A stretch of 55,762 nt of DNA from Bordetella hinzii LMG 13501. GTDB taxonomy: Bacteria > Pseudomonadota > Gammaproteobacteria > Burkholderiales > Burkholderiaceae_B. Each line of letters opens with the position of its first letter. The stretch's first letter is position 1. Under the pieces are notes generated by a model. That model had not been told where the DNA came from. It was given only the letters and a program-made list of their open reading frames with translations, and ran no database searches. Position numbers and translations under genes: made by a program. The DNA lies in contig NZ_LRUJ01000033.1 in NCBI RefSeq assembly GCF_001548475.1, positions 1 through 55,762 on the forward strand, written 5' to 3'. Shown here in pieces: positions 2,099 through 45,300 of this stretch.

Positions 2099-2108
2099 GG
2101 CGTGTCCC

Positions 2109-3142: not shown

Positions 3143-3222
3143 TTAGGAAGCCAAACTGGCCCTGTCAATGGATGGCGCACTGGTGGAAACCCTGGCGCGA
3201 CGCGCACGGCGCCGCGGCACGC

Positions 3223-3254: not shown

Positions 3255-3282
3255 CTTGAAAGCCTGCCGGTCTGGAGAGGGA

Positions 3283-3303
3283 CGGCCCCGCGGCGCGGGG
3301 CCG
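3283..3303 (-). terminator. 9-bp GC hairpin directly after the amidohydrolase stop
   Basis: CGGCCCCGC, a GGC loop and GCGGGGCCG form a strong stem four bases after the amidohydrolase stop codon. There is no T tract of its own; with the hairpin at 3223-3254 it makes a tandem pair that may protect the mRNA end or add to termination. Confidence 0.4.
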
Positions 3304-3307
3304 CCGG

Positions 3308-4624: not shown

Positions 4625-4651
4625 GCCCTTGTCTCCTCGCTGTTCTTGTCT

Positions 4652-6309: not shown

Positions 6310-6331
6310 ATTGATCCAATATTGATCCAAT
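6310..6331. promoter_or_regulatory. Two tandem 11-bp operator repeats abutting the FAH start codon
   Basis: ATTGATCCAAT occurs twice head to tail (6310-6320 and 6321-6331), directly next to the FAH ATG. Each copy is itself a short dyad, ATTG-N3-CAAT, the size of a GntR half-site. The reverse-orientation relatives at 6426-6447 flank the other side of the same intergenic region. They are probably sites for the adjacent FadR-type repressor; here binding would cover the ribosome site and leader of the FAH operon. Confidence 0.6.
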
Positions 6332-6425
6332 TGTTGAATTCGTGAACCATTATGACCCATCCGATTGATACAGTCAGCAGAAACTCGGGTTTTACTAGAG
6401 AAAACACCTAGTATTTGACCGGAAA

Positions 6426-6447
6426 ATTGGATTAGAATTGGATCAAA
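6426..6447. promoter_or_regulatory. Mirrored pair of 11-bp operator repeats before the GntR gene
   Basis: ATTGGATTAGA (6426-6436) and ATTGGATCAAA (6437-6447) are degenerate reverse complements of the ATTGATCCAAT repeats at 6310-6331, in tandem and just upstream of the GntR gene. The pair ends next to the AAGG of its ribosome site. Autoregulation of the GntR gene is the obvious reading. Confidence 0.55.
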
Positions 6448-6458
6448 AAAGGATGTCT

Positions 6459-8879: not shown

Positions 8880-8895
8880 TTCCTGGAGTGAATGC

Positions 8896-9978: not shown

Positions 9979-10002
9979 CCCGTCCACGACAAAGGAGCCC
10001 GC

Positions 10003-11606: not shown

Positions 11607-11623
11607 CCACAGGACAGACCCGC

Positions 11624-12472
11624 ATGACAACGACTTCTTCTCCCGCGCTGGACCTGCAGCTGCAAGGCGTGGGCAAGCGCTACGCCAGCCCGCAGGCCGA
11701 CAGCGGCGCGCTCCAGGTGCTCGACGGCATCGACCTGCATATCCCGGCGGGCGAATTCCTCTCCATCGTCGGGGCCAGCGGCTGCGGCAAGTCCACCCTC
11801 TTGCGCCTGGTCCTCGGGCTGGACGCCCAGTACGAGGGCCAGATCACCCTGGGCGGCGAGCCGCTGCGGGGGACCGGCCCGGAGCGCGGCATCGTGTTCC
11901 AGGATCACCGGCTCTTCCCCTGGCTGACGGTGGCGCAGAACATCGCCGTGGGCCTGCGCAATGCGCGCGCCAGCGCCGCCGAGAAGCGCGACCGCGTGGC
12001 CGAGCACATCGCGCTGGTCGGACTGGAGGGCTTTGAACAATCCTATCCGCACCAGATCTCGGGCGGCATGGCCCAGCGCGTGGCGATCGCGCGCGGCCTG
12101 GTCAACCGGCCCCGGGTGCTGCTGCTGGACGAGCCTTTCGGCGCGCTGGACGCGCTGACGCGGGCGCGCCTGCAGGCCGAGCTGCAACGCATCTGGCAGA
12201 AGGAGCGCATCACCATGGTCCTCGTCACCCACGATGTCGAAGAAGCCGTGTTCCTGGGCGATCGCATCGTGGTCATGCAGCCGCGTCCGGGCCGCATCCG
12301 GCGCATCGTGCCGGTGCCGCTGGCCCACGCCCGCAACCGCAGCGATCCGCGCTTCATCCAGATCCGCGACGACGTGCTGTCGGACTTCCTGGCGCCGGGC
12401 GCCGGCGAGGACCTGCCCCGCGAACGCCCCCTGCCCCAGCCCTCTCTCGCCTCGCTGCGCATGGCCTGGTGA
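11624..12472 (+). CDS. ABC transporter ATP-binding protein (SsuB/TauB type)
   Basis: A 282-residue ATPase. Walker A GASGCGKST, Q-loop VFQDHRLFPW, signature SGGMAQRVAIARGL, Walker B VLLLDEPFGALD and the switch VTHDVEEAVFLGDR are all intact. The EEAVFLGDR ending and PRPGRI tail are typical of the nitrate/sulfonate/taurine family. It energises the two permeases immediately upstream. The start at 11624 follows an AGGACAG ribosome site; a longer open frame upstream runs antiphase through the permease gene and is not used. Confidence 0.93.
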   Translation: MTTTSSPALDLQLQGVGKRYASPQADSGALQVLDGIDLHIPAGEFLSIVGASGCGKSTLLRLVLGLDAQYEGQITLGGEPLRGTGPERGIVFQDHRLFPWLTVAQNIAVGLRNARASAAEKRDRVAEHIALVGLEGFEQSYPHQISGGMAQRVAIARGLVNRPRVLLLDEPFGALDALTRARLQAELQRIWQKERITMVLVTHDVEEAVFLGDRIVVMQPRPGRIRRIVPVPLAHARNRSDPRFIQIRDDVLSDFLAPGAGEDLPRERPLPQPSLASLRMAW

Positions 12473-12488
12473 GTCTCCGGAGACCCTG

Positions 12489-13838
12489 ATGACGACAAGA
12501 CAGATCAAGCTCGGCGCCTTCCTGATGCAGACCGGCCACCATATCGCGGCCTGGCGCCACCCCGGCGCCCAGGCCGACGCCGGCGTCAACATCCGCCATT
12601 ACGCGGACCTGGCCCGGCGCGCCGAAGCCGCCAAGTTCGACGCCATCTTCCTGGCCGACGCGGTGGGAGTGCGCAACAGCGAGCTGGACTCGCTGTCGCG
12701 CACCGCCCGCAGCGACCATTTCGAACCCTTGACGCTGCTCTCGGCGCTGGCCATGGTGACCGAGCGCATCGGCCTGATCGCCACCGTATCGACCACCTAC
12801 AACGAGCCCTATCATGTGGCGCGCAAATTCGCCTCGCTGGATCACATCAGCGGCGGGCGCTCGGGCTGGAACCTGGTGACCTCCAGCGGCCAGGGCGAAG
12901 CGCAGAACTTCAATCTCGATGAGCATGTGGACCACGCCCGGCGCTATGCGCGCGCGGCCGAGTTCCATGATGTGGTGCTGGGCCTGTGGGACAGCTGGGA
13001 GGACGACGCCTTCGTGCGCGACGCCGCCAGCGGCCAGTACTTCGATCCCGGCAAAGTGCACCCGCTCAATCACCGCGGCGAACACTTCCGCGTGCGCGGG
13101 CCCTTGAACGTGGCGCGCTCGCCGCAGGGACGGCCCGTGGTGGTGCAGGCCGGCGCCTCGCCCGCCGGCCGCGACCTGGCCGCGCGCACGGCCGAAGTCA
13201 TCTTCGTGGCGCACCAGACCTTCGACGAAGCCCAGGCCTTCTATCGCGACATCAAGCAACGCGCCCAGGTCTATGGCCGCGATCCCGGCCAGATCAAGAT
13301 CATGCCCGGCATCTTCCCCGTCATCGGCCGCAGCCAGGAAGAAGCCGAAGAGAAATTCGCGCGGCTGCAGGACCTCATCCATCCCGTGGTCGGCGTGCAG
13401 CTGCTGTCGAACATGATAGGCGCCGATCTCAGAGGCTATCCGGTCGACGGCCCCCTGCCCGAGCTGCCGGAGACCAATGGCGGCAAGAGCCGCCAGCAGC
13501 TGCTGGCGGACCTGGCCCGCCGCGACGGCCTGAGCATACGCGAGCTGTACCTGCGCATCGCTGGCGCCCGCGGACACCAGCAGATCGTGGGCACGCCCAA
13601 GCGCGTGGCCGACCAGCTGCAGCAGTGGTTCGAGGAAGAAGGCGCCGACGGTTTCAACATCATGTCGCCCTGGCTGCCCGGCGGCCTGGACGACTTCATC
13701 GAACTGGCCCTGCCCGAGCTGCGCCGCCGGGGCCTGGTGCGCAGCGAGTACCAGGGCAGCACCCTGCGCGAGCACCTGGGCCTGCACCGTCCGGCGCATC
13801 CGGCGGCGGCCGCGCGTGGCGCGCGCGCGGCCGCCTGA
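12489..13838 (+). CDS. LLM-class flavin-dependent monooxygenase (NtaA/SnaA/DszA type)
   Basis: A 449-residue luciferase-like protein. Family hallmarks are LGAFLMQTGHHIAAWRHP at the N-terminus, FDAIFLADAVG, STTYNEPYHVARKFASLDH and SGWNLVTSSG, then PVVVQAGASPAGRDLAA. These FMN-reductase-dependent enzymes oxidise sulfur- or nitrogen-bearing compounds (DszA sulfone, NtaA nitrilotriacetate, SnaA antibiotic precursor, or alkanesulfonates). It starts 16 bp after the ATPase gene in the same operon, so the imported compound is probably its substrate. No flavin reductase gene is visible in the window, so reduced FMN must come from elsewhere. The C-terminus ends in an Ala-rich tail. Confidence 0.9.
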   Translation: MTTRQIKLGAFLMQTGHHIAAWRHPGAQADAGVNIRHYADLARRAEAAKFDAIFLADAVGVRNSELDSLSRTARSDHFEPLTLLSALAMVTERIGLIATVSTTYNEPYHVARKFASLDHISGGRSGWNLVTSSGQGEAQNFNLDEHVDHARRYARAAEFHDVVLGLWDSWEDDAFVRDAASGQYFDPGKVHPLNHRGEHFRVRGPLNVARSPQGRPVVVQAGASPAGRDLAARTAEVIFVAHQTFDEAQAFYRDIKQRAQVYGRDPGQIKIMPGIFPVIGRSQEEAEEKFARLQDLIHPVVGVQLLSNMIGADLRGYPVDGPLPELPETNGGKSRQQLLADLARRDGLSIRELYLRIAGARGHQQIVGTPKRVADQLQQWFEEEGADGFNIMSPWLPGGLDDFIELALPELRRRGLVRSEYQGSTLREHLGLHRPAHPAAAARGARAAA

Positions 13839-13846
13839 GGCCCGGC

Positions 13847-14062
13847 TCAAAGCTTGGCGACCGAGACCTCGGTTGCCTTGACAAAGGCCAGCACCTCGGT
13901 GCCGACCTGCAGGTCCAGCTCCTTGACCGACCGCGTCGTGATCACCGAGGTCACGACGCCGGCCGGTGTTTCGATGTCGACTTCGGACACCACGGAACCG
14001 AACACGATCTCCTTGATCTTGCCCCGGAACTGGTTGCGCGCGTTGATGGATGGAATGGCCAC
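13847..14062 (-). CDS. Molbindin (Mop-like, single TOBE domain)
   Basis: A 71-residue protein, MAIPSINARNQFRGKIKE at the start, with the TOBE molybdate-binding pattern SINARNQFRGKI, FGSVVSEVDIET, VTSVITTRSVKEL and FVKATEVSVAK. Such small proteins form hexamers that bind molybdate or tungstate in the cytoplasm. It starts with GTG at 14062, eight bases after GGAG; no good ATG is available. It sits convergent to the LLM monooxygenase, ending 8 bp beyond that gene's stop. No molybdenum enzyme is visible nearby, so its place here may be incidental. Confidence 0.88.
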   Translation of the reverse strand: MAIPSINARNQFRGKIKEIVFGSVVSEVDIETPAGVVTSVITTRSVKELDLQVGTEVLAFVKATEVSVAKL

Positions 14063-14110
14063 GAAGAAATCTCCTGCGTCATGCGCCCGGAAAGCCCCGG
14101 GAAGGCGGGC

Positions 14111-14131
14111 CCGCGCGCGTTCTGCGCGCGG
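14111..14131. repeat. 8-bp GC hairpin in the 195-bp gap between livF and the molbindin gene
   Basis: CCGCGCGC, GTTCT, GCGCGCGG form a hairpin. It lies downstream of leftward livF (stop near 14258) and upstream of the molbindin start, so it may mark the end of the ior-liv transcript. There is no T tract. The rest of the gap also has a weak dyad GCGAC-N9-GTCGC at 14178-14196 that could be an operator for the molbindin gene. Confidence 0.3.
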
Positions 14132-14257
14132 CTGCCCATAGCCTAAGGCGATACGCCGCGCCGGCAAACGCACAATTGCGACTAAGGATATGTCGCGTTG
14201 CCACCTCGGCGAAGCCTCGCCATCCGCCGGAAGACTCGCCCCCGGCGCCGCGGCATT

Positions 14258-14986
14258 TCACAATCCCAGGTACGCCGCCATCACCCGCGGGTCCCGCAGC
14301 AGCGCCTGCCCGCTGCCCGAGACGGTGATGCGCCCGACCTCCAGCACATAGGCATGGTCGGCCAGGGCCAGGGCGGCACGGGCGTTCTGCTCCACCAGCA
14401 GGACGGGCATGTCCAGGTCGCGCAGGCGGGCGACCACGTCCAGCACTTCGCGCACCAGCAGCGGCGCCAGGCCCATGGACGGTTCATCGAGCAGCAGTAC
14501 GCGCGGCCGGCTCATCAACGCCCGCGCGATGGCCAGCATCTGCTGCTGGCCGCCGGACAGCATGCCGGCGGCCAGTGCCCGCTTTTCGGCCAGCACGGGA
14601 AAGAGCGCGAACATCTCGTCCATGCGCTCACGCGCCTGGCGCGCGCGCACATAGCCGCCCAGAAGCAGATTGTCTTCGACGGACAGCGGCCCGAACACCT
14701 GGCGTCCTTCCAGCACCTGCGCCAGGCCGGCCCGCACCCGGCTGTCCGGCGGGTCGCGGCTGATGTCCCGGCCCAGCAGTTCGACGCGGCCGGCGCGCGT
14801 GGGCACCAGGCCCGACAAGGCGCGCAGCAGGGTGGTCTTGCCCGCGCCGTTGGCGCCCACCAGGGCCACGAGCTGGCCGCGCGGCAGGTCCAGGTCGATG
14901 CCGTGCAGCACTTCGATGCGTCCATAGCCCGCCTTCAGGCCGCGCACGGTGAGCGCCCCGGCCGGCGCCGCGGATTCATTCTGCAT
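14258..14986 (-). CDS. livF: Branched-chain amino acid-type ABC transporter ATP-binding protein LivF
   Basis: A 242-residue ATPase of the LivF group: GYGRIEVLHGIDL, Walker A GANGAGKTT, Q-loop/ordered VLEGRQVFGPLSVEDNL, signature LSGGQQQMLAIARAL, Walker B VLLLDEPSMGLAP and VLLVEQNARAAL. It pairs with LivG, overlapping that gene by 11 bp. It is the last gene of the leftward ior-liv run. HAAP-family transporters of this type take up branched-chain amino acids but also aromatic acids, amides and urea, so the substrate should be judged from the co-transcribed oxidoreductase rather than from the name. Confidence 0.93.
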   Translation of the reverse strand: MQNESAAPAGALTVRGLKAGYGRIEVLHGIDLDLPRGQLVALVGANGAGKTTLLRALSGLVPTRAGRVELLGRDISRDPPDSRVRAGLAQVLEGRQVFGPLSVEDNLLLGGYVRARQARERMDEMFALFPVLAEKRALAAGMLSGGQQQMLAIARALMSRPRVLLLDEPSMGLAPLLVREVLDVVARLRDLDMPVLLVEQNARAALALADHAYVLEVGRITVSGSGQALLRDPRVMAAYLGL

Positions 14987-15734
14987 GGCTGGCGGCTCCC
15001 AGATAGGCTTGGATCACTTTTTCGTCGGCGCGGATCTCCTGCGCGCTGCCTTCGGCCAGGCGTCTGCCATGGTCCAGCACCAGGATGCGGTCGGAAATCT
15101 CCATCACCAGCCGCATATCGTGTTCGACCAGCAGGATGGTGATGCCGGTCCCGGCGATGCGCCGGATGAGCCGGGTGAGTTCGGCCGTTTCGCTGTCGTT
15201 CAGGCCCGCGGCCGGCTCGTCCAGCAGCAGAAGACGCGGCTCGCCGGCCAGCGCGCGCGCGATCTCCAGCCGCTTGAGCGCGCCAAAGGACAGCTGCGAG
15301 GCATGATGCTCCCGATACTCGCCCACGCCGGCCATCTCCATCCAGGCCAGGGCGTCGCGCGCTAGCCGCCGGTCAGCCGCGCGCGTCCATCCCATGAGGC
15401 CGACCAGCAGGCCGGCCCGCTGGCGCAGGTGCGCGCCCAGCATGACGTTCTCGCGCGCCGTCATGTTCATGCACACCTGCAGGTTCTGGAAGCTGCGGCT
15501 CACGCCGCGCCGCGCCAACTGTTCGGGCGCCATGCCGCCGATCGGCTTGCGGTCGAGCAGGATGTCGCCCTCGCTGGGCGCATAGACGCCGCTGATCAGG
15601 TTGAACAGCGTGGTCTTGCCCGCGCCATTGGGCCCGATCACCGCATGGACGTCGCCCTCGCGCACACGGAAACTCACATCCTGCACGGCGGCCACGCCGC
15701 CGAAGAAACGTGTCAATCCCTTGACCTCCAGCAT
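14976..15734 (-). CDS. livG: Branched-chain amino acid-type ABC transporter ATP-binding protein LivG
   Basis: A 252-residue ATPase beginning [20 protein letters not shown], with Walker [10 protein letters not shown], the LivG-type [18 protein letters not shown], signature [15 protein letters not shown], Walker [14 protein letters not shown] and [16 protein letters not shown]. The ATG at 15734 touches the livM stop (TGATG); a GTG three bases further upstream would make a 4-bp overlap instead. Either way translation is coupled to livM. It forms the nucleotide-binding heterodimer with LivF. Confidence 0.93.
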
Positions 15735-16669
15735 CACGGCCTCCGGCGCAGATAGTGTTGCAGCGTGGGCACCAGGCCCTTGGGCAAGAAGATCATGGTC
15801 AGCATCAGGATAAGGCCGAAGCCCATCATTTCGTACTCGTGCAGGCCGCCCAGCAGCTGCGGCAGCACGGTGAGCAGGGCCGCGCCCAGCACCGCGCCGA
15901 ACGTCGAGGCCATGCCGCCCAGCACCACCATGGTGGCCAGCTCCACGGAATAGGTGAATCCGGCCAGCGAGGGCGTGATGAAGCCAAGGTAATGCGCCGT
16001 GAGGCCGCCGGCCAGCGAGGTGAAGACGGCCGAGGCCACGAAGGCCCTGACCTTGTAGTCCGCGACATCCACGCCCGCCACCCGGGCCGCGACCTCCGAA
16101 CCATGCAGGCCGCGCAGCGCCCGCCCGGCCGGCGAGTCATAGAGGTTGAGCGACAGCGCCACGGCGCCGAAGAGCAGCACGGCGGCCAGGCCATACCACA
16201 TGCCCATGCCCTCGACCGCATGGCCCATGACTTCCAGCGGCCCGACCGGCATGCCATCGGGCCCGCCTGTCCAATCGACCTCATTGACGAGAATCATGTT
16301 GACGATGATGCCCAGGCCCAGCGTGGCCATGGTGAGCGAATGGCCGCGCAGCCGCAGGATGGGCTTGCCGACCAGGTAGGCCACCGCGGCCGCGCCCAGC
16401 ACGGCGGCCGCCATCGCCGCCAGCGGCGGCCAGCCCAGGCGGGCCGTCAGGATGCCCGCGCCATAGGCGCCGATGGCCACGAAGGCGGCATGCCCGATGC
16501 TGACCTGGCCGGCGAAGCCCATCAGCAGGTTCAGCCCGACGGCGGCGATGCCGGCCAGGCAGATGCGCACCGCGAGGTCCATGAGAAAGTTGTTGCCCAA
16601 GGCTAGCGGCAGCAGCGCCAGCGCCAGGGCCAGCGCGCATAGCGAGGGGCGTACCGGAAGTGTCTTCAT
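15734..16669 (-). CDS. livM: Branched-chain amino acid-type ABC transporter permease LivM
   Basis: A 311-residue membrane protein beginning [20 protein letters not shown], with eight or more hydrophobic segments and the LivM signatures [34 protein letters not shown] and [20 protein letters not shown]. The start at 16669 overlaps the livH stop by ATGA. Together with LivH it makes the membrane channel. Confidence 0.93.
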
Positions 16670-17538
16670 ACCCGCTCCGCGCTGCGTTTGCCGAAGATGC
16701 CCTGCGGCATGAACAACAAGATGACGATGATGAGCAGGAAGGGCACGGCGTCCTTGTAGGCCGAGGACACATAGCCGGCCACGAAGGCTTCCAGCAGGCC
16801 CACCAGCAGGCCGCCGGCCACCGCGCCCACGCCGCTGCCCAGTCCGCCCAGGGTGGCGGCCACGAAGCCTTTCATGCCGAGCATGAGCCCCAGGTCGTAT
16901 ACCGTGGTGGTGATGGGCGCGGCGGTCACGCCGGCCACGGCGCTCAAGCCGGCCGCCATGCCGAAGGACAACATGAGGATGCGCGAGGTGCTGATCCCCA
17001 CGGCCTGCGAGGCCAGGCGATTGGCCGCCACCGCCAGCATGGCCTTGCCCGTGAGCGTCAGCCTGAAGAAGACGGCGCAAGCCAGCACCATGGCCAGCGA
17101 TACGCCCCAGACCCACAGGCTTTGCGGCAACACATAGGCGCCGGCCAGGGACAGCGCCTCGTCGCCGCTGAACGCCGGCAGCGTGCGCTGGTTCTTGCCC
17201 AGCACCCACTGCGCCGCGCCCTGGATGAAGAGCGACGCGCCGATGGTGATGATGATGAGCGACAGCACATTGGCGTCGCGCGCCGGCCGGATGGCCAGCA
17301 GGTAGAGCAGCAGCCCCACGGCGATGCCCACCGCCACGGCCGCCGCGGCCGCCGCCGGCAAGGGCACCTGGGAAGCGGCCAGGGTGGCGGCCACCATGCC
17401 GCCTATCATCAGGAAATCTCCCTGGGCGAAATTGATCACGCCGCTGGCGTTGTAGATGACGGAAAAGCCCAGGGCGGCCAGGGCGTAGATGGCGCCCGTG
17501 GTCAGCCCGGCGAAGACGAATTGCGCAAAGTCAGCCAT
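16666..17538 (-). CDS. livH: Branched-chain amino acid-type ABC transporter permease LivH
   Basis: A 290-residue membrane protein: FAGLTTGAIYALAALGFSVI, GVINFAQGDFLMIGGM and the late VAATLGGLGSGVGAVAGGLL are the standard LivH landmarks. It follows livK after a 94-bp gap that holds a strong stem-loop (17575-17613), which probably sets the ratio of binding protein to membrane parts. It is translationally coupled to livM. Confidence 0.93.
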   Translation of the reverse strand: MADFAQFVFAGLTTGAIYALAALGFSVIYNASGVINFAQGDFLMIGGMVAATLAASQVPLPAAAAAAVAVGIAVGLLLYLLAIRPARDANVLSLIIITIGASLFIQGAAQWVLGKNQRTLPAFSGDEALSLAGAYVLPQSLWVWGVSLAMVLACAVFFRLTLTGKAMLAVAANRLASQAVGISTSRILMLSFGMAAGLSAVAGVTAAPITTTVYDLGLMLGMKGFVAATLGGLGSGVGAVAGGLLVGLLEAFVAGYVSSAYKDAVPFLLIIVILLFMPQGIFGKRSAERV

Positions 17539-36874: not shown

Positions 36875-38191
36875 TCAGCCCGCCCGCGGCAGCGCCAGCC
36901 GGCACTCCAGTCCGCCGCCCGCCGCATTGACCAACTCCAGCCGGCCATCGAAGCGCCGGGCGATGGCCGCCACGATGGCCAGCCCGAGGCCGCTGCCCTC
37001 GACCTGCCGGCCGCCGCGCCAGAACGGTTCCTGCGCCATCTCCAGGGCTTCGGCCGGCAGGCCTGGCCCATGGTCGCGCACGCGCACATCGACCGTGGCG
37101 CCGCTCACGGCGGCCGCGATGCGCACCGGCCGGTCGGCGGGCGAATACTTCAGGGCGTTGTCCACCAGGTTGCGCAAGGCGCTGGCCAGCAGCGGGGCCG
37201 GCATGCCGACATGGACGGGCGCCCGGGGCAGGTCCAGCTCCAGGCGCTGCGGCGCCAAGCCCTCGAGCGCCTGCCGGGCCGCGGCGGCCAGCTCGGCGCG
37301 TTCGGCCGGAGCGGGCGCGTTCTCCACGCGCGCCAGGCTGAGCAGTTGGTCGATGAGGCGGCGCAGCCGGTTGGCGCCCTGCAGGGCGCTGCCCAGCGAG
37401 GCGCGGCGCGGGTCTTCGGGCGGGGTCAGGCGGTCCAGCACCTGGAGGTGGGTGGTCACCACCGTCAAGGGCGTGCGCATCTCGTGCGCGGCGTTGTCGG
37501 CGAAGCGCCGCTCGCGCAGCAAGGCCTCGCGCATGCGCCGCAACAGGCCGGAGATGGTCTGCGTAAAAGGCCGCAGCTCGCGCGGCACCGGCGTGCGCGG
37601 CAGGTCGATCCGCTCCAGCGGCACGTCGGCGGTCAAGGCGCGGCGCAGGCGCTCCAGCGGCGCCAGCCCCCGGCCGATGCCCAGCCACAGCAGCAGCGAC
37701 CCGGCCAGCAGGCAGACGCCGAAAGGCAGGATGGCGGCCAGGGCCACTTCGCGGCGCAGGCCGTCGCGCAGATCCATGCGGTCGGCCGTGGCGATGCGCA
37801 GCTCGCCCTGCTCCAGCACATAGGTGCGCCAGCGCACGCCCTTTTGCTCCAGATAACCGAAACCGTTGCCGGCGGCACGCAGCCTGGGGCTGCCGGGCGT
37901 GCGCGCGACTGTGCGCGCGAGCACTTCGGCGCGCCATTCGCTGACCTCGCAGGCCACGCCATCGCGGGCCAGCACGTCCAGCGGCGCCGCCTCGCCCTGG
38001 GCCGGGCTGGCCTCGGGCAAGGGCAGCTGCGACAGCAGGCGGCCCACCATGCCGGCCGAGGCCGCCAGGCGCGAATCCAGCGCGCTGTCCATCTGCGAGC
38101 TGGCGCGCTCATAGAGCCAGAGTGTCATGCCGCCGCCCAGCAGCAGCCAGGACAGGCCCAGGAGCAAGAGCAGCCGGCCGCGCAGGCTCAT
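36875..38191 (-). CDS. Two-component sensor histidine kinase (QseC/PmrB-like)
   Basis: A 438-residue membrane kinase. Two transmembrane segments (about residues 7-27 and 150-172) frame a periplasmic domain of about 120 residues. The dimerisation box FADNAAHEMRTPLTVV puts the phosphorylated histidine at H236; the ATPase has NLVDNALKYSP (N), DHGPGLP (G1), EPFWRGG (F) and GSGLGLAIVAAI (G2). The start overlaps the response regulator stop by ATGA. The sensed signal is unknown; the periplasmic domain has a single cysteine (C81). Its divergent neighbour is an oxidase/TsdA operon, suggesting a respiratory or sulfur-related signal. Confidence 0.92.
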   Translation of the reverse strand: MSLRGRLLLLLGLSWLLLGGGMTLWLYERASSQMDSALDSRLAASAGMVGRLLSQLPLPEASPAQGEAAPLDVLARDGVACEVSEWRAEVLARTVARTPGSPRLRAAGNGFGYLEQKGVRWRTYVLEQGELRIATADRMDLRDGLRREVALAAILPFGVCLLAGSLLLWLGIGRGLAPLERLRRALTADVPLERIDLPRTPVPRELRPFTQTISGLLRRMREALLRERRFADNAAHEMRTPLTVVTTHLQVLDRLTPPEDPRRASLGSALQGANRLRRLIDQLLSLARVENAPAPAERAELAAAARQALEGLAPQRLELDLPRAPVHVGMPAPLLASALRNLVDNALKYSPADRPVRIAAAVSGATVDVRVRDHGPGLPAEALEMAQEPFWRGGRQVEGSGLGLAIVAAIARRFDGRLELVNAAGGGLECRLALPRAG

Positions 38192-38847
38192 GGTTCGCCC
38201 AGGCGGTAGCCCAGGCCGCGCACGGTCTGGATGATGCCGGCGCCGAGCTTGCGGCGCAGTTTGTGGATATGGACGTTGAGCGCATTGCTCTCGACGTTGT
38301 CGGCATAGCCATAGAGCCCGTCGCGCAGCTGCTCGGCGGTGAGGATGCTCTGCGGACGCTGCAGCAGCACGCGCAGCAGGCCCAGCTCGCGCCGCGCCAG
38401 GACGACCTCCTGGCCATCGCGCAGCACCCGGCCGGTGGACAGGCAGACCTCCAGCGGCCCGTGGCGGATGCAATCGCGGCTGTAGCCGGCGGCGCGCCGG
38501 ATGACGGCATGCAGGCGCGCGCCCAGTTCATCCAGGTCGAAGGGCTTGAGCACGTAATCGTCGGCCCCGGCCTGCAGGGCGCGCACGCGGTGGGCCGTGG
38601 CCTCGCGGGCGCTGACCACCAGCACCGGCAGCGCATGCTGGCGCGCCCGCCACCGGGCCAGCAGCGTCATGCCATCGTGGTCGGGCAGGCCCAGGTCCAG
38701 CAAGCAGGCGTCGAAACACGAGGTCATCAAGGCGGCGTCCGCCTGCTCGGCCGACCCCACGGCGTCCACGACGAAATCCTGCAGGCCCAGCCCCGCCTGT
38801 ATGCCTTGTGCGACCAGCACATCGTCTTCCACCAACAGGATGCGCAT
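38188..38847 (-). CDS. OmpR-family response regulator (QseB/PmrA/TctD-like)
   Basis: A 219-residue response regulator. Receiver residues are E7/D8 (LLVEDD), the phospho-acceptor D51 (CLLDLGLPDHDG) and K101 (VLKPFD); the C-terminal winged helix ends SNALNVHIHKLRRKLG and TVRGLGYRLG. The ATG at 38847 is the start giving the normal MRILLVEDD N-terminus; a longer frame upstream would add unrelated residues. It is the first gene of the two-gene operon. A GTTAAT-N5-CTTAAT box, the type bound by PmrA/QseB, lies in the divergent promoter region at 38955-38971. Confidence 0.93.
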   Translation of the reverse strand: MRILLVEDDVLVAQGIQAGLGLQDFVVDAVGSAEQADAALMTSCFDACLLDLGLPDHDGMTLLARWRARQHALPVLVVSAREATAHRVRALQAGADDYVLKPFDLDELGARLHAVIRRAAGYSRDCIRHGPLEVCLSTGRVLRDGQEVVLARRELGLLRVLLQRPQSILTAEQLRDGLYGYADNVESNALNVHIHKLRRKLGAGIIQTVRGLGYRLGEP

Positions 38848-38865
38848 CTCTGCCCTTCGTACTAA

Positions 38866-38880
38866 ATTATTTTTAATAAT
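38866..38880. promoter_or_regulatory. AT-rich palindrome ATTATT-TTT-AATAAT upstream of the response regulator gene
   Basis: Perfect 6-bp arms 19 bp before the response regulator ATG, within an unusually AT-rich stretch (38860-38905) for this genome. It probably contains the leftward promoter. An ATTAAC at 38897-38902, a reverse-orientation copy of the GTTAAT half-site, is nearby. Confidence 0.4.
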
Positions 38881-38954
38881 AAACATATTTCTTGTGGATA
38901 TTAACGCACCGGGCCGACCTGACCTTGGCCTACCCGCCCGCCATGCGCGGCGCT

Positions 38955-39094: not shown

Positions 39095-40642
39095 ATGAAC
39101 ACCACGCTCGGCCTGCTCCTGGCGCTCAGTTTCGTTGTGTCGCTCGCCGCGCTCGGCGTGCTGATCTGGGCCATCGCCAACCGGCAGATCGGCGCCGGCA
39201 AGACCGAGGCGTCCAGCATCTTCCTGGCGGGCGAATCCGGCCATCTCGACGACCCCTCCTCCGGCGCCGGCGCGCACCGCTTCGACGCCCAGCGCGCCGG
39301 CGTGGACCGGCCCGGACGCCAGGTGGTGCAGGCGCTGACCCTGGTCGCCACGGGCTTTCTGATCGTGGGCTCGCTGTTTGGCATGATGGCTTCGCTGAAG
39401 CTGCACATGCCGGACTGGCTGGCCGGCCTGCCCTTCACCACCTTCGGCCGCTCACGCACCATCCACCTCAACCTCGTGGCCTACGGCTGGCTCTCGGTGG
39501 CCGGCTTCGCGGTAGCGCTGTGGATCTTGCCGCGCATGTTCCATACCCCGCTGCGCCGCCCCGGCATGGCCATGGCGGGCGGCGCCATCTGGACGCTGGG
39601 CGTGGCCGCCGGGGCCATCGCCATTGGCGCGGGATGGAGCGACGGCCTGGAATGGCTGGAGATTCCCTGGCAGATCGACATCGTGCTGGCCCTGGGCGGG
39701 TTGTTCCTGGCCTGGCCGGCGCTGGCCACGGCGCGCCGGCGCGAGGTGCATCACATCTACGTGACGGGCTGGTACTACCTGGCCGGCATGGCCTGGTTTC
39801 CCATTCTCTTCTTCATCGCCAACCTCCCCGGCCTGCACCTGGGCGTGCAGCAGGCGACGATGAACTGGTGGTTCGCGCACAACGTGCTCGGCCTCTGGCT
39901 CACGCCGCTGGGGGTGGGCACGGCCTACTACCTCATCCCCAAGATCATCGGCAAACCCATCTACTCCTACAGCGTGTCGCTCCTGGGGTTCTGGGGCCTG
40001 GCGCTGTTCTACAGCCAGGTCGGCATCCACCATCTGATCGGCGGGCCGGTGCCGACCTGGGTGGTGACGCTGTCGGTGGTGCATAGCGTGATGATGTTCG
40101 TGCCCGTGATCGCCGTTGCGGTCAACCAGCACGTCACCGTGGCGCAGAACCTCTGGGCTTTCAAGCAATCGATGGCGCTGCGCTTTGTATGGACCGGGGC
40201 GCTGATGTATACGGCCGCCTCCTTCCAGGGTTCGCTCGAGGCCGTGCGGGCGGTCAACTCGGTCACCCACTTCACGCACTACACCGTGGGCCACGCCCAC
40301 CTGGGCGCCTATGCCTTCGTATCGGTCGTGCTGTTCGGCGCTTTCTACTACATGCTGCCGCACCTGACCGGCAAGCGCTGGCCCTGGCCGCGCCTGATCG
40401 CCGCGCATTACTGGCTGACGGTCGCGGGTTTCGCCATCTACTTCCTGTCGCTGTCGGTCGGCGGCTGGCTGCAGGGCATCGCCTTGCTCGATGCCACGAC
40501 GAGCTTCGCCGACATCACGCGCGATATCCGCCCCTACCTGGAAGGCCGCTCCCTGGGCGGCGGGCTGATGACGCTGGGCCACCTGCTCTTCGGCGCCCAG
40601 GTCATCGCCCTGTTCTGTTCCAAGCGACAAGGTGCCGCATGA
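39095..40642 (+). CDS. ccoN: cbb3-type cytochrome c oxidase subunit I (CcoN) with extra N-terminal segment
   Basis: A 515-residue heme-copper oxidase subunit. Expected ligands are visible: H124 (RTIHLNLVAYGW, low-spin heme), H262 (WWFAHNVLGLWLTP, CuB), H312-H313 (GIHHLIGG, CuB), and H400/H402 (YTVGHAHLGAYAF, hemes). The helix-VII tyrosine typical of CcoN is kept (TAYYLIPK). The first 75 residues are not in ordinary CcoN: a transmembrane helix LLLALSFVVSLAALGVLIWA followed by IANRQIG, which resembles the small CcoS assembly protein. It begins an operon with ccoO, two cytochromes and a Cu ATPase. GGAG lies six bases before the ATG. Confidence 0.9.
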   Translation: MNTTLGLLLALSFVVSLAALGVLIWAIANRQIGAGKTEASSIFLAGESGHLDDPSSGAGAHRFDAQRAGVDRPGRQVVQALTLVATGFLIVGSLFGMMASLKLHMPDWLAGLPFTTFGRSRTIHLNLVAYGWLSVAGFAVALWILPRMFHTPLRRPGMAMAGGAIWTLGVAAGAIAIGAGWSDGLEWLEIPWQIDIVLALGGLFLAWPALATARRREVHHIYVTGWYYLAGMAWFPILFFIANLPGLHLGVQQATMNWWFAHNVLGLWLTPLGVGTAYYLIPKIIGKPIYSYSVSLLGFWGLALFYSQVGIHHLIGGPVPTWVVTLSVVHSVMMFVPVIAVAVNQHVTVAQNLWAFKQSMALRFVWTGALMYTAASFQGSLEAVRAVNSVTHFTHYTVGHAHLGAYAFVSVVLFGAFYYMLPHLTGKRWPWPRLIAAHYWLTVAGFAIYFLSLSVGGWLQGIALLDATTSFADITRDIRPYLEGRSLGGGLMTLGHLLFGAQVIALFCSKRQGAA

Positions 40643-41280
40643 ATCGAGTGACCTCCCTCCTGGTCGGCGCCGTCGCCGTCCTCGCCTTCGCGACCGTGTT
40701 CCTGGTGATCCTGCCGGCCTGGCAGGTGCGCCAGGCCGCCGCGCCCGCGGGCCTGCAGAACTACACCGTGGAGCAGCTGCGCGGCCGCGCGCAATACATC
40801 GCCAACGGCTGTGTCTACTGCCACAGCCAGCAGCCGCGCGCCACCGGCCAGACGCTGTCCGACCTGGCCCGCGGCTGGGGACGCGCCTCCACGCCCGGCG
40901 ACTACGCCCATGACGCGCCGCATCTGCTGGGCACCATGCGCACCGGCCCGGACCTGCTGAACGTGGGCGCGCGGCTGCCCAGCCGCGATTGGCACCTGAC
41001 GCATCTCTACCAGCCCAGGGCCATCTTCGACTGGAGCATCATGCCTTCCTATCCTTATCTGTTCGAGAAGAAGGCCCGGCCCGAGGCCGGCGATGTGGTC
41101 GTCAAGCTGCCGCCGGCGCTGCGTCCGGCCGACGGCGGCGTGATCGTGGCGCGCCAGGAAGCGCTGGATCTGGCGGCCTACCTGCTCAGCCTGGACCGCA
41201 GCTATGCCGTCAGCGACAAGGAAGCCGCCATGCGGGACCAGGGCTATGACCCCCGCGCCGTGAAAAAGGAACAGCCATGA
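40639..41280 (+). CDS. ccoO: cbb3-type cytochrome c oxidase subunit II (CcoO), monoheme cytochrome c
   Basis: A 213-residue membrane-anchored cytochrome. A single N-terminal transmembrane segment (about residues 5-27) is followed by GRAQYIANGCVYCHSQQ, with heme at C58/C61/H62, and the axial methionine in SIMPSYPYLF (M135). Length and motif order are those of CcoO. The start overlaps the ccoN stop by ATGA. It should pass electrons from the following cytochrome into CcoN. Confidence 0.92.
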   Translation: MNRVTSLLVGAVAVLAFATVFLVILPAWQVRQAAAPAGLQNYTVEQLRGRAQYIANGCVYCHSQQPRATGQTLSDLARGWGRASTPGDYAHDAPHLLGTMRTGPDLLNVGARLPSRDWHLTHLYQPRAIFDWSIMPSYPYLFEKKARPEAGDVVVKLPPALRPADGGVIVARQEALDLAAYLLSLDRSYAVSDKEAAMRDQGYDPRAVKKEQP

Positions 41281-42035
41281 AGACCGCCCGGCGCGTCGAG
41301 GACATCGACCCCGCCTTCGATCCCTGGGAACAATCCCGGCCCATTCCGCTCTTCGTGCTGGCGATCTTCATCGCCCTGGCCATCTGGGGCGCCCTGAGTT
41401 ATCTGGACGATCTGGCCCCGGCGCGCAGCGGCGAGCCCGGCGGCCTGACGGCGGACGCGCCGACCCCGGTGCAGGCCGACGCCGGCGCCCCGCTGCTGGT
41501 CAGCCGCGGCAATGCGTCCCTGTGGAGCTGCGCTTCCTGCCATGGCGCGCGCGGCGAAGGCGCGGCGCAGACGCCCCGGCTGGCGGGGCTGCCGGCCGAG
41601 TACCTGGCCAAGCAGCTGCGCGACTTCGCCGCCGGCGCGCGCGCCAATGAATCCATGCGCTATATCGCGCGCCAATTGAGCGATGCGGATATCGAGACCG
41701 TGGCGCGCTATTACGCCGGCCTGCCGCCCCTGCCCGGCGCGGCCATGGCGCTGGGCGCCTCGCAGGCGCGCGGTGAAATGCTCAACCGCCATGGCGATTG
41801 GAAACGCGACATCCCCGCCTGCGCCACCTGCCATGGGCAGAACGGCGAAGGCGTGGGCAGCGAGTTCCCGCGCCTGGCCGGCCAGCAGGCCGAATACCTG
41901 CTCAGCCAGCTGGCCGCCTGGAAGGGCGGACAGCGGCGCAACTCGCCGCAGTCCTTGATGGACGACATCGCCGCGCGCATGAGCGACGACGACATGCGGG
42001 CGGCCGCCCAATACTTCGGCTCGCTACGCCCCTGA
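41277..42035 (+). CDS. Membrane-anchored diheme cytochrome c (c4-like; TsdB- or CcoP-equivalent)
   Basis: A 252-residue protein with a cytoplasmic stub MKTARRVEDIDPAFDPWEQS, one transmembrane helix (about 24-42) and two cytochrome c domains with hemes at C85-ASC-H89 and C182-ATC-H186. The two halves are alike (PRLAGLPAEYLAKQL and PRLAGQQAEYLLSQL), as in cytochromes c4. It overlaps ccoO by ATGA. In a normal cbb3 operon this place is held by CcoP, which has two N-terminal helices; this gene has one helix and c4-like domains, closer to TsdB, the electron acceptor of thiosulfate dehydrogenase. It could serve as both. Confidence 0.85.
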   Translation: MKTARRVEDIDPAFDPWEQSRPIPLFVLAIFIALAIWGALSYLDDLAPARSGEPGGLTADAPTPVQADAGAPLLVSRGNASLWSCASCHGARGEGAAQTPRLAGLPAEYLAKQLRDFAAGARANESMRYIARQLSDADIETVARYYAGLPPLPGAAMALGASQARGEMLNRHGDWKRDIPACATCHGQNGEGVGSEFPRLAGQQAEYLLSQLAAWKGGQRRNSPQSLMDDIAARMSDDDMRAAAQYFGSLRP

Positions 42036-42052
42036 CTCCCCGGAGATCCGCC

Positions 42053-43123
42053 ATGAAGACTTCCTCCCGGCCGGGCAGCCGCCTGGCCCGCGCCAGCCTC
42101 CTGGGCCTGCTGCTGTTCGCCGCCGGCTACGGCGTGTATGAAAGCGGCCTGATCGCCGATGGCTATCGTCTGTTCGGCGGCCACGCCGGCCAGGCCGACA
42201 GCCCGCCGCCCTACTCGCGCGCCCAGATGGAGGCCGACCGCAAAGCCTATGCCAAGAGCGCATCGGCCGCGCCGCCGCGCATGCCGGTCGGCAGCGACGG
42301 CTACTACCTGCCGCCGCCCGAGGACGCGCTGCCCAAGGGCCCGCATGGCGAGGCCGTCAAGCGCGGACGCGATATCTTTACGCAGACCGGCGCCTATGTG
42401 AAAGACCACGTCGGCAATGCCATGGCCTGCGCCAACTGCCACCTGGATGCCGGCCGCCGCGAGAACTCGGCGCCCATGTGGGCCGCCTACGGCGCGTATC
42501 CGGCCTACCGCGCCAAGACGGGCAGCATCAGCACGCTGGAGGACCGCATCCAGGGCTGTTTCATGTACTCGATGAACGCCCAGCACTCGCCTTCGGGCCA
42601 CGCGCCCGAGGCCGGCAGCGATGTCTACCGCGACCTCATCACTTATATGGCCTGGCTGGCCGACGGCGCGCCGGCTGGAGAAAAACTGCGCGGCGCCCTC
42701 TATCCCAAGATCGCCAAGCCCAAGGAAGGCTACGACCTGGGACGCGGCCTGGCGGTCTACCAGCAGAACTGCGCGCTATGCCATGGCGAACAGGGCCAGG
42801 GCACGCGCGATGCGCAAGGCCAGATGAAGTTCCCCCCGCTATGGGGCGCGGAGTCGTACAACTGGGGCGCCGGCATGGCGCGCATCGACACCGCCGCCGG
42901 CTTCATCAAGGCCAATATGCCCATGGGCAAGCCCTACTCCCTGAGCGACCAGCAGGCCTGGGACGTCGCGGCCTTCATCAACAGCCACGAACGGCCCAAG
43001 GATCCGCGCCAGACCGGGACGGTCGAGGCCGCCGCGCGCGATTTCCACGCCGGCGAAGAGAGCTATTACGGCAAGATGCTCAAGGGCCACCTGCTGGGCA
43101 CTGGCGTCGTGGCCTCGCGCTAG
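42053..43123 (+). CDS. tsdA: Thiosulfate dehydrogenase (TsdA-type diheme cytochrome c)
   Basis: A 356-residue protein with an N-terminal signal anchor (about residues 12-30). Heme 1 is bound at C126-ANC-H130; the TsdA-specific block STLEDRIQGCFMYSMN supplies C169, which in characterised TsdA is the unusual cysteine axial ligand. Heme 2 is at C240-ALC-H244, with M289 or M291 in IKANMPMG as likely ligand. The conserved AAYGAYPAYRAKTGSI stretch also matches the family. TsdA joins two thiosulfates into tetrathionate, or works in reverse, in the periplasm. Its place between a c4-like cytochrome and a Cu ATPase in an oxidase operon suggests direct electron delivery to oxygen. Some TsdA-like cytochromes have no known activity, so the function needs testing. 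Confidence 0.8.
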   Translation: MKTSSRPGSRLARASLLGLLLFAAGYGVYESGLIADGYRLFGGHAGQADSPPPYSRAQMEADRKAYAKSASAAPPRMPVGSDGYYLPPPEDALPKGPHGEAVKRGRDIFTQTGAYVKDHVGNAMACANCHLDAGRRENSAPMWAAYGAYPAYRAKTGSISTLEDRIQGCFMYSMNAQHSPSGHAPEAGSDVYRDLITYMAWLADGAPAGEKLRGALYPKIAKPKEGYDLGRGLAVYQQNCALCHGEQGQGTRDAQGQMKFPPLWGAESYNWGAGMARIDTAAGFIKANMPMGKPYSLSDQQAWDVAAFINSHERPKDPRQTGTVEAAARDFHAGEESYYGKMLKGHLLGTGVVASR

Positions 43124-43131
43124 GGCCGGGC

Positions 43132-45300
43132 ATGATGGACATGGAGCCGGCGCGCCGGGCCGGACGCATGGTGTTCGCGGTCGAGGGGCTATGGTGCGCG
43201 AGCTGCGCCATGGCCTTGCAGCGCGCCCTGGCCCGGCTGCCGGGCATCACCTCGGCCTCGGTGAACTTCACCTCCGGCTCGGCCCTGCTCACCTGGGCGC
43301 CCGAAACGGTGGATTTCGAACAAGTCTTCGAGCGCGCCCGCAAGCTGGGCTATGGCCTGGCGCCCCTGCAGGCCGCCGATGCGCAGGCGCTGCCGCTCCA
43401 GGCCCGCCGCATCCGCCTGCAGCTGGTCGTGGCCGTGGTCTTCGGCATGTGGAGCATGCTGGGCTCCTGGGTGCTGTACCTGGACGAGGGGCGCCTGGAG
43501 CCGTCGGCCGCGCTCGCCATCGCCTGGGCGGCGTTCCTGGCCGGGCTGCCGGTGGTGGGCTATGCCGGCCTGGACTTCTATCGCGCCGCCTGGCGCACGC
43601 TGCGCGCCGGCCTGGCCGGCATGGACGCCCTCATCACGCTGGGCGTGGCCGGCTCGCTGCTGGTCTCGCTATGGGAGCTGGCCCATGGGCAGACGCGCAT
43701 CTATATCGACGCGGCCACCATGCTCATCGGTTTTCTGCTGGCCGGCCGGCTGATCGAGGTCCATGCCCGCCAGGAAAGCCGGCTCGCCGCCGATGCGCTC
43801 GGCCAGCTGGCGCCCGAGACCGCCAACCGGCTCGAACAGGGCCAGCCCATACCGCGCCGGCTGGCCGAGCTCGCCGCCGGCGACACGGTCCTGGTGCGCG
43901 CCAATGAGCGCGTGCCGGTCGATGGCATCGTCCTGCGGGGCGAATCCGCGCTGGACCGCTCGCTGCTGACCGGCGAGTCCCTGCCCGCGCCCGTGGGCGA
44001 AGGCCAGGCCGTGCTGGCGGGATCGGTCAATCTGCAAGGCGCGCTGACATTGCGCGTGACGGCCGCCGCCGGCCAGCGCCGCATCGATTTCCTGGGCCTG
44101 CGCATGCTGGAGCTTTTCGGCGCGCGCAGCTCGCTGTCCGAAACGGCCGAACGCTTTGTGCGCTTCTTGCTGCCGGCCGTGCTGCTGGTCGCCCTGGCCG
44201 CCTTCGGCCGCTATCTTTGGGCCGGCCAGGCCGTCGACATGGCGTTGATCCAGGCCCTGGGCATCCTGGTGGCGGCCTGCCCTTGCGCGGTCGGGCTGGC
44301 CACGCCGCTGGCCTATACCCTGGCCTGCCGCAAGGCGGCCGCCAGCGACATCCTGTTCCGCGATCCGGCCAGCGTGGAGGCGCTGGCGCGGGCACGGATC
44401 TATGCCTTTGACAAGACCGGCACGCTGACCTTGGGCGAGTTGGCGCTCACCGGTATCCGGACCGCCGCCGGCTGGAGCGAGGCCCAGGTGCTGGGCCTGG
44501 CCCGGGAAGCGGAATCCGTGGTCAGCCATCCCATCGCCAACGCCCTGCGGCGGATCGCGCAAGAACGGCAGCTGCCGGACACCGCCGGCGCCACCGCGCA
44601 TCGCGCGCATGCGCGCGGCGTCTCCATGCGGGCCGCCGATGGCGCGCTGATACAGGCCGGCGCCCATGATTGGCTGGCCGGCGCCGCCTCGCTGCCGCCG
44701 GACACGGCGGGCAGCATGCACCTTGTCCGCAACGGTGTCTGGATAGGCAGCCTGCACTTCCAGGACAGGCCGCGGCCCGAGGCGCGGGCCACGCTGGCCG
44801 CGCTGGCCGCGCAAGGCCGCCGGCGCTGGCTGCTGACCGGCGACAGCGCCGCGGCCACCGGCCAGCTGCTGGCGGCCCTGGAGACGGATTTCGACCTGGT
44901 GCGCTGCGCGCTGACGCCCGAAGACAAGGCCGATTGCCTACGCGGGACCTCGGCGGTGTTCGTCGGCGACGGCGCCAACGACGGCCTGGTGCTGGCCAGC
45001 GCCGCCTGCGGCGTGGCGATTCCGGGCGCCAGCAGCGTGGCGGTCGCCGCCGCCGGCGTGGTCATCACGCGCGGCGGAATCGGACGGCTGCTGCAGGCGC
45101 GGGCCATCGCGTGCCGCATGCTGGGCATCGCGCGCCAGAACCTGCTGTTTTCCATGGCCTACAACGTGGCGGTGGTGGCCGTCTTCTTCGGCACCGGCGC
45201 CACGCCCTTCGCGGCGGCGCTGGCCATGCTGGCGAGCAGCCTTTCGGTATTCGCCAACACCGCCCGCATCGGGCTGCCGGCGCGCGCGGCAAGCGCCTAG
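43132..45300 (+). CDS. P1B-type copper-transporting ATPase (CcoI/CopA2-like)
   Basis: A 722-residue pump. The N-terminal metal domain has C22-AS-C25 (GLWCASCAMALQ); the core has T280-GES, the CPC motif at C383 (AACPCAVGLATP), D427-KTGT, the HP motif VVSHPIANAL and D613 in GDGAND. The last helices carry YN (MAYNVAVV) and MLASSLSVFAN, the P1B-1 signature for Cu(I). The hinge reads GDGANDGLVLAS instead of the usual GDGxNDAPALA, a divergence also worth checking. It starts 8 bp after tsdA with a weak ribosome site. CcoI-type pumps load copper into the CuB site of cbb3 oxidases, which fits this operon. A 12-bp palindrome spans its stop codon (45293-45304). Confidence 0.9.
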   Translation: MMDMEPARRAGRMVFAVEGLWCASCAMALQRALARLPGITSASVNFTSGSALLTWAPETVDFEQVFERARKLGYGLAPLQAADAQALPLQARRIRLQLVVAVVFGMWSMLGSWVLYLDEGRLEPSAALAIAWAAFLAGLPVVGYAGLDFYRAAWRTLRAGLAGMDALITLGVAGSLLVSLWELAHGQTRIYIDAATMLIGFLLAGRLIEVHARQESRLAADALGQLAPETANRLEQGQPIPRRLAELAAGDTVLVRANERVPVDGIVLRGESALDRSLLTGESLPAPVGEGQAVLAGSVNLQGALTLRVTAAAGQRRIDFLGLRMLELFGARSSLSETAERFVRFLLPAVLLVALAAFGRYLWAGQAVDMALIQALGILVAACPCAVGLATPLAYTLACRKAAASDILFRDPASVEALARARIYAFDKTGTLTLGELALTGIRTAAGWSEAQVLGLAREAESVVSHPIANALRRIAQERQLPDTAGATAHRAHARGVSMRAADGALIQAGAHDWLAGAASLPPDTAGSMHLVRNGVWIGSLHFQDRPRPEARATLAALAAQGRRRWLLTGDSAAATGQLLAALETDFDLVRCALTPEDKADCLRGTSAVFVGDGANDGLVLASAACGVAIPGASSVAVAAAGVVITRGGIGRLLQARAIACRMLGIARQNLLFSMAYNVAVVAVFFGTGATPFAAALAMLASSLSVFANTARIGLPARAASA

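Follow-up and report, generated by a model that had tools for sequence, protein, structure and literature searches.

An oxidase operon of Bordetella hinzii with TsdB- and TsdA-type cytochromes, a predicted thiosulfate:oxygen oxidoreductase

Results

A divergent oxidase operon contains TsdB- and TsdA-type cytochromes

A 55,762-nucleotide stretch of Bordetella hinzii LMG 13501 (RefSeq assembly GCF_001548475.1, contig NZ_LRUJ01000033.1, positions 1 to 55,762; hereafter the window) contains a five-gene operon at positions 39095-45300 that is probably a dedicated thiosulfate:oxygen oxidoreductase, in which a divergent C-type oxidase is combined with a TsdB-like cytochrome, a TsdA-type cytochrome and a heavy-metal ATPase. 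This assignment is founded on the anatomy of the operon, its conserved catalytic residues and gene order, congruent trees and the occurrence of its middle gene in three forms. The five genes are as follows.

39095-40642, plus strand: ccoN, 515 residues; COX1 at 246 bits (Pfam)
40639-41280, plus strand: ccoO, monoheme c subunit, 213 residues; FixO at 109.5 bits, one CxxCH
41277-42035, plus strand: tsdB-like gene, CcoP-like membrane anchor plus c4-type diheme domain, 252 residues; matches PDB entry 5lo9
42053-43123, plus strand: tsdA, thiosulfate dehydrogenase-type diheme cytochrome c, 356 residues; matches PDB entry 5lo9
43132-45300, plus strand: P1B-type heavy-metal ATPase; above the TIGR01525 cut-off, HMA domain

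Coordinates and family assignments bear out the co-directional arrangement described in a sequence-only reading of the window, with 4-bp overlaps at ccoN/ccoO and ccoO/tsdB-like, a 17-bp gap before tsdA and an 8-bp gap before the ATPase gene. In operon order, the Pfam families are COX1; FixO; Cytochrom_C (two stretches); SoxA-TsdA_cyt-c with Cytochrom_C; and E1-E2_ATPase with HMA. CcoP, CcoG and CcoH are not among the five proteins by family assignment, and the genes are too closely spaced for a ccoP or ccoQ to fit between them on the operon strand, in agreement with the earlier statement that CcoP, CcoQ, CcoG and CcoH are missing from the operon; a canonical CcoP and ccoG lie elsewhere in the genome.

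The TsdB-like middle gene occurs in three forms

The best PDB match of the c4-type protein is residues 11-188 of 5lo9, the TsdB half of the Marichromatium purpuratum TsdBA fusion (PMC9237845, PMC5146829), and the best match of the operon TsdA is residues 211-516 of the same structure, its TsdA half. On this homology the c4-type protein is a TsdB. Its CxxCH motifs lie at residues 85 and 182, and M127 and M228, candidate Met ligands of its hemes, are invariant across 14 aligned sequences of the same form. A c4-like diheme protein with a conserved Met candidate for each heme is encoded directly before tsdA. While Halomonas TsdB is soluble and periplasmic and carries a signal peptide (PMC9237845), the window protein, as read from its sequence, opens with a membrane anchor of the type found in a CcoP-like protein, X, of related loci, and it is thus considered a variant of TsdB. 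The M. purpuratum protein resembles the window arrangement in that its halves best match both window cytochromes, tsdB immediately precedes tsdA and a Cys heme ligand is present; it differs in that TsdB is fused to TsdA, whereas an oxidase-subunit anchor holds the window TsdB in the membrane, and its gene lies within an oxidase operon.

Named genomes were scanned with a CcoN alignment, and the best 80 of 494 relatives, chosen by CcoN likeness and thus representing the near branch only, were compared (loci carry L numbers below). In the split form (9/80 loci), two genes encode a one-heme, CcoP-like X and a two-heme TsdB. In the fusion form (43/80), a single three-heme X-TsdB protein is encoded. 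In the window form (23/80), a single two-heme protein combines the membrane anchor of X with the hemes of TsdB; the remaining five loci are without tsdA. Heme counts for the 43 fusions are CxxCH motifs in one open frame, and the three fusions that were aligned have an X-like N terminus followed by a remainder that aligns along the full length of TsdB.

The window TsdB begins with FDPWEQSRPIP and a single hydrophobic stretch, as read from the sequence; X begins with FEPYE..NP.P in most split loci, and the canonical CcoP of the source genome has E.NNPVPRWW. Profile comparison of the anchors of the window form and X (19 versus 8 sequences) returned a probability of 99.4%, as compared to 4.1% for the pre-heme stretch of split TsdB and 17.2% for the CcoO N terminus used as controls. 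The sequences had been picked by motif, which retrieved 19/19 window-form, 8/9 split and 5/38 fusion proteins. Homology of the anchors implies that one window protein combines the anchor of X with the hemes of TsdB, the heme of X itself having been lost.

When two proteins are found fused in relatives, this is commonly accepted as a sign of joint action. The joining of X and TsdB in relatives of the operon ties TsdB to the oxidase, where 5lo9 ties it to TsdA instead, and on comparative grounds argues strongly for TsdB being one of the subunits of this oxidase. The sequence-only reading had the c4-like protein replace both TsdB and CcoP; this proposal is borne out in a refined form, with the hemes coming from TsdB and the anchor from a CcoP-like X.

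The gene order is conserved and its two ends are co-inherited

A search for the gene order in other genomes, proposed earlier as a check, found ccoN, ccoO, the middle region and tsdA on one strand in 75 of the 80 best named loci, from alpha-, beta- and gammaproteobacteria, with the ATPase gene present in 65/80. Chance neighbourhood is ruled out by this recurrence. The five loci that deviate are L149, L187 (contig end), L165 (ccoN-ccoO-tsdB-ATPase), and L202 and L206 (no TsdA).

In a sample of the family, TsdA matches were obtained in 121/268 genomes (E <= 1e-40). At the 19 places fetched for their closest TsdA (62-94% identical), the order is always ccoN-ccoO-tsdB-tsdA, and 11/19 include the ATPase gene; the eight without an ATPase match belong to one genus. 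At one locus, L111, tsdA lies in two overlapping frames (76 and 58% pieces), reflecting a broken gene or a sequencing error. Of the remaining family matches, in which TsdA is more distant, a part was fetched (21 loci, mostly 13 kb each); operon-type CcoN was absent from all 21 in the stretches seen. One of these 21, L122 (5181-10046), has tsdBA beside a canonical ccoNO, apparently an independent linkage of tsdBA to a cbb3 oxidase.

For trees and distances, 10 near-duplicate loci were dropped. In a CcoN tree of 93 rows obtained by a quick method, 73 tsd-type rows group together (support 99), five of them tsdA-less in the stretch seen, and are separate from 18 tsd-free relatives and two canonical sequences; the split form makes up one clade and the window and fusion forms nearly so. 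In a TsdA tree of 93 rows obtained by a careful method, the 66 operon TsdA sequences form a clade (95/93), and every bootstrap tree (100%) recovers each of the three middle-gene forms as a single clade. Over the 66 shared loci, CcoN distances correlate with TsdA distances at r=0.87, where the maximum in 2000 permutations within architecture was 0.53, indicating that both ends of the operon were inherited together. Both trees had been called for at the outset; CcoN groups apart from canonical sequences, TsdA lies near 5lo9, and the distances are congruent.

The module is widespread, with carriers in the alpha-, beta- and gammaproteobacteria. A phylum scan (E <= 1e-90) found the CcoN family in at least 5/398 genomes including the source, all in the taxonomic order of the window, and a scan of that order found it in at least 24/399, again including the source; both scans scored up to three candidates per genome. 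The operon with its flanks, up to 21.5 kb, is 100% identical in four genera (L137-L140: Pigmentiphaga kullae, Achromobacter pulmonis, Pseudomonas abietaniphila and Cupriavidus gilardii; L138 is in two pieces, with its left flank shifted), suggesting either that a mobile element spread recently or that assemblies were mixed up. Plasmid copies with tsdBA occur in Paracoccus versutus (on pBEN) and Indioceanicola profundi, and the module seems to be mobile; Thioclava pacifica is another environmental carrier. At L152, L153, L155-L160 and L164, a second, more distant TsdA-like diheme protein is encoded directly upstream of ccoN, preceded at L153 by a three-heme cytochrome of 450 residues.

The operon TsdA is of the thiosulfate dehydrogenase type

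The operon TsdA retains both CxxCH motifs, a Cys distal ligand to heme 1 and a Met ligand to heme 2 (ligand roles according to PMC5146829), as do all 66 operon rows. At the position of the Lys of A. vinosum TsdA, it has Asn, like 5lo9; Asn is also reported at this position in the tetrathionate-reducing TsdA of C. jejuni (PMC5146829). The SoxA model gave 56 bits on the operon TsdA, against a cut-off of 110. In the TsdA tree, which contains no SoxA, 5lo9 is sister to the operon clade on a long branch (92/80), with A. vinosum TsdA more distant. Placement among non-thiosulfate cytochromes, which would have told against the sequence-only reading, was not seen; the operon sequences group with characterized TsdA. 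By ligands and tree, the protein is of thiosulfate dehydrogenase type, with the activity predicted. A rough test for an A-x-A-like site, as an indicator of a signal peptide versus an uncleaved TsdA anchor, did not separate the groups, such sites being present in 10/20, 32/37 and 7/9 of the operon rows and in 21/21 other TsdA loci.

CcoN belongs to a divergent C-type oxidase

CcoN aligns to solved cbb3 CcoN with an E value of 4e-53, and residues H124, H262, Y306, H312, H313, H400 and H402 are kept in 93/93 aligned rows, including the two canonical ones; these six His residues and the helix-VII Tyr we take, from the cbb3 structure, to be the heme and CuB ligands and the oxidase tyrosine. In these residues and in its monoheme CcoO, the operon agrees with cbb3 oxidases. 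Retention of the tyrosine and all His ligands rules out a nitric oxide reductase. A plain canonical cbb3 oxidase is ruled out as well, since CcoN reaches only 221-222 bits on the TIGR00780 ccoN equivalog model (cut-off 583); by this score, it is a divergent relative of canonical ccoN. The Glu of the TFEG motif seen in the two canonical rows is replaced by Gln in operon CcoN, and Gln is found in 21/21 window-form, 33/38 fusion, 9/9 split, 5/5 tsdA-less and 17/18 tsd-free rows. No diheme CcoP with a FixP_N domain is encoded in the operon, and FixP_N is seen in 2/5 separate X proteins of relatives at E values of 0.15 and 0.21. Compared to canonical CcoNOQP (e.g., PDB 3mk7), the operon shares the CcoN metal ligands, the helix-VII tyrosine and CcoO, and differs in the low score of its CcoN, the Gln for Glu exchange, a CcoS-like start of CcoN, and the lack of the diheme CcoP and CcoQ.

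Residues ~1-50 of CcoN resemble FixS: four N-terminal pieces gave E values of 1.5e-4 to 0.056, all below the Pfam cut-off, and the whole protein gave 0.28. A free open reading frame (ORF) directly upstream of ccoN in the sister lineage L062 passes the FixS cut-off, and with a profile of 73 CcoN N termini, the top matches among 1245 frames are the free ORFs of L062 and L063, both tsd-free relatives. Pairwise matches of the N terminus to canonical CcoS are weak, with 5 and 39 of 2000 shuffles equally good. Fusion of CcoS to the N terminus of CcoN is likely on this resemblance, yet not proven.

ATPase, regulators and sulfur genes near the operon

The ATPase scores 380.8 bits on TIGR01525 (cut-off 346) and has an HMA domain and a heavy-metal ATPase core. 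Of the earlier description of a copper ATPase, the heavy-metal P-type assignment stands, while the copper-specific model TIGR01511 falls short of its cut-off (343-344 versus 397 bits); the metal is probably copper, and the ATPase is a probable stand-in for CcoI.

Two genes are divergent from ccoN.

38188-38886, minus strand: response regulator, PmrA/QseB-like, divergent from ccoN
36875-38110, minus strand: sensor histidine kinase, QseC-like, the partner of the regulator

The best models, PmrA and QseB for the regulator and QseC for the kinase, all score below their cut-offs. At the corresponding position, Bordetella pseudohinzii (L133) has a copy of the kinase with 92% identity; this species is also the closest named relative in the scan (CcoN 96% identical). 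Similar regulator and kinase pairs lie near 25/49 non-duplicate tsd loci (20 kb) and 0/23 tsd-free loci. In Halomonas, the tsdBA loci described in print are preceded by a gene for a QseB-type regulator (PMC9237845), as expected if such a regulator moves together with tsdBA. Regulation of the operon by the divergent two-component system is probable. Genes resembling SoxB, SDO or Blh/SQR were found near 21/49 tsd loci and 3/23 tsd-free loci, SDO-like ones near 8/49 and Blh/SQR-like ones near 4/49 tsd loci. The SoxB, SDO and regulator counts come from single queries at E <= 1e-15, and the difference between tsd and tsd-free loci is in part one of stretch length (>20 kb versus ~6-14 kb); SoxB matches at 25-32% identity may be other 5'-nucleotidases, and the neighbours that were scored with models fall below the SoxB, Blh and SQR cut-offs, as relatives do.

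Sister oxidases without tsdBA

Across the tsd-free sisters, the plasmid locus below included, CcoN is 43-57% identical to that of the operon. The 23 tsd-free loci taken from the taxonomic order of the window encode this CcoN, CcoO and, in 22/23 (L059 is cut at a contig end), a one-heme anchored X. Unlike the operon, these Burkholderiales-type sisters show no tsdBA in the stretches seen and mostly have an adjacent SCO1/SenC relative (near 19/23). On a Paraburkholderia fungorum plasmid (L225:6932-13797), ccoN, ccoO, X and the ATPase gene are followed by SorA-like and SorB-like genes in place of tsdBA; with 572 bits on the SorA model (cut-off 600) and 67 bits on SorB (cut-off 93), these resemble sulfite dehydrogenase, and the same oxidase branch seems, by homology, to be paired there with another periplasmic sulfur dehydrogenase. 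Marinobacter aromaticivorans (L205) has two operons of this oxidase branch within 20 kb (1846-6980 and 10001-17127), one with ccoN, ccoO, X and the ATPase gene and without tsd, the other with tsdBA.

A related locus and the Erythrobacter flavus thiosulfate cluster

The nearest experimental work concerns cluster D0Y83_01340-01450 of Erythrobacter flavus 21-3, the products of which rise in the proteome with thiosulfate; TsdA is reported to form tetrathionate there, and deletion of tsdA (01395) almost completely disrupted sulfur globule formation (PMC7608252). The published tags run sdoA (01345), soxB (01365), four tags, TsdB (01390), TsdA (01395), one tag and a 5'-nucleotidase (01405). In Pelagerythrobacter (L174), the order is a SoxB-like gene, two ORFs, ccoN, ccoO, X-TsdB, TsdA, ATPase, 5'-nucleotidase and a two-component pair, so the tags fit this locus by position from SoxB onward. 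As in E. flavus, where sdoA is upstream of soxB, L174 has a piece of SDO at its upstream edge, but the ORFs that separate SDO from SoxB there outnumber those permitted by the tags. By analogy, the four E. flavus tags would include ccoN and ccoO. The terms 'cytochrome c oxidase' and 'cbb3' do not occur in the main text on the cluster (PMC7608252), and the two L174 ORFs before ccoN match no NCBIfam model. Operon-type CcoN (E <= 1e-150) was found in 2/149 genomes of that family, that of L174 itself and L221, which has ccoN, ccoO, X/TsdB and tsdA and no SoxB match in the 20 kb seen.

Genome setting

The source genome (4.99 Mb) has five COX1 loci including that of the operon. On contig C19, a canonical ccoN reaches 760 bits on TIGR00780, with a CcoP containing FixP_N and ccoG on the same contig; the operon is therefore not the only oxidase of the genome. 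Beside this ccoN (~8580-9520, minus strand) is a CcoI-like ORF of ~310 residues with a transmembrane and CPC part, the ATP-binding part not being seen in its translation, and a separate CcoS ORF follows it. A second TsdA-like protein is encoded on contig C32 (40% identity). No SoxB above the cut-off was found in the source genome, and tetrathionate may be the end product there.

Discussion

The compact thiosulfate:oxygen chain proposed in the sequence-only reading is supported at the level of prediction, and is refined, by the conserved gene order and by TsdB being built into the oxidase. By family precedent, the Cys-ligated heme of TsdA would be the site at which two thiosulfates are oxidized to tetrathionate, and two electrons would pass to the diheme domain of TsdB, from which they would move via CcoO to CcoN and oxygen, a route that would bypass both bc1 and the pool of soluble cytochrome c. 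Metal loading or delivery would fall to the ATPase and assembly to the CcoS-like N terminus of CcoN, while the two-component system may sense the substrate or its products. Electron flow, membership of a single complex, the copper, the catalytic direction and the regulatory role are what we infer from the observed features. An extended version is evenly balanced in our judgement: that TsdB is a structural subunit of a distinct C-type branch, that the five genes specify one membrane complex working without quinone, bc1 or soluble cytochrome, and that ccoN-ccoO-X, with its CcoS-like N terminus, is a modular platform with a periplasmic dehydrogenase of its own, TsdBA for thiosulfate and, on the Paraburkholderia plasmid, SorAB for sulfite.

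Several observations weigh against assignment as a dedicated thiosulfate:oxygen oxidoreductase. At L165, L202 and L206, the oxidase occurs together with a two-heme middle gene but TsdA is absent, and plasmid pPF72-1 of Pandoraea faecigallinarum (L226:7770-8924) carries a TsdA 69% identical to that of the window; no oxidase gene is annotated in the 17 kb seen of this plasmid, and a plasmid CcoN scan (E <= 1e-60) lists no match there. TsdA is bidirectional within its family (PMC5146829), so that direction would be set by the partner and is not readable from the sequence. The TsdA tree carries a warning that long branches meet, and the long rows include both 5lo9 and A. vinosum TsdA. The ATPase score is below the cut-off for copper, and the canonical CcoS of the source genome is not picked up by the CcoN N-terminal profile. 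Relatives of SoxB, SDO, Blh/SQR and SCO1 are all missing from the window. The same genome has the canonical cbb3 locus and three further COX1 loci; a second full ccoNOQP locus that carries all oxidase activity had been named earlier as a refuting case, of which the existence of a canonical cbb3 locus stands, while its presence says nothing about flux. Biochemistry on this oxidase was not found in the literature searched.

Of the alternatives, the least improbable, although unlikely, is a loose partnership, in which the genes are co-regulated and co-inherited, TsdB electrons enter the general cytochrome c pool to reach any oxidase, and the oxidase serves other donors as well. The frequency of tsdBA away from this oxidase in the family (the 21 distant-TsdA loci, in the stretches seen), its adjacency to canonical ccoNO at L122 and the other COX1 loci of the source genome are consistent with such an arrangement. 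The three-heme X-TsdB proteins in 43/80 loci and the shared anchor in 23/80, in contrast, suggest coupling of a physical and not merely regulatory kind, and the CcoN-TsdA distance correlation likewise argues for a closer bond. Detoxification, that is, removal of thiosulfate or reactive sulfur and respiration under sulfide with little energy gain, is considerably less probable; SDO-like and Blh/SQR-like neighbours occur at some loci, e.g., L137, but only in the minority counted above, with neither in the window, and such a role would be compatible with a thiosulfate:oxygen oxidoreductase. That TsdA works in reverse as a tetrathionate reductase, with the oxidase an unrelated passenger, is highly improbable: its Asn-Met heme-2 region is like that of the tetrathionate-reducing C. 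jejuni enzyme (PMC5146829), but the 5lo9 fusion likewise has Asn, E. flavus TsdA is reported to make tetrathionate (PMC7608252), and an oxygen-reducing partner would make the reductive direction pointless.

Direct electron donation by TsdB, either to cbb3 oxidases (PMC9237845) or to heme-copper oxidases generally (PMC9774590), has already been proposed. In the literature searched, which has most subscription journals outside it, no locus is described that physically ties TsdB to an oxidase. The parts of the operon are of known kinds; their combination, and the series of forms of the middle gene, are described in no paper searchable here. The fusions of TsdB to an oxidase subunit make the direct-donor proposal open to a direct test. 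If the thiosulfate:oxygen oxidoreductase assignment is correct, heterotrophs could gain thiosulfate respiration through one operon.

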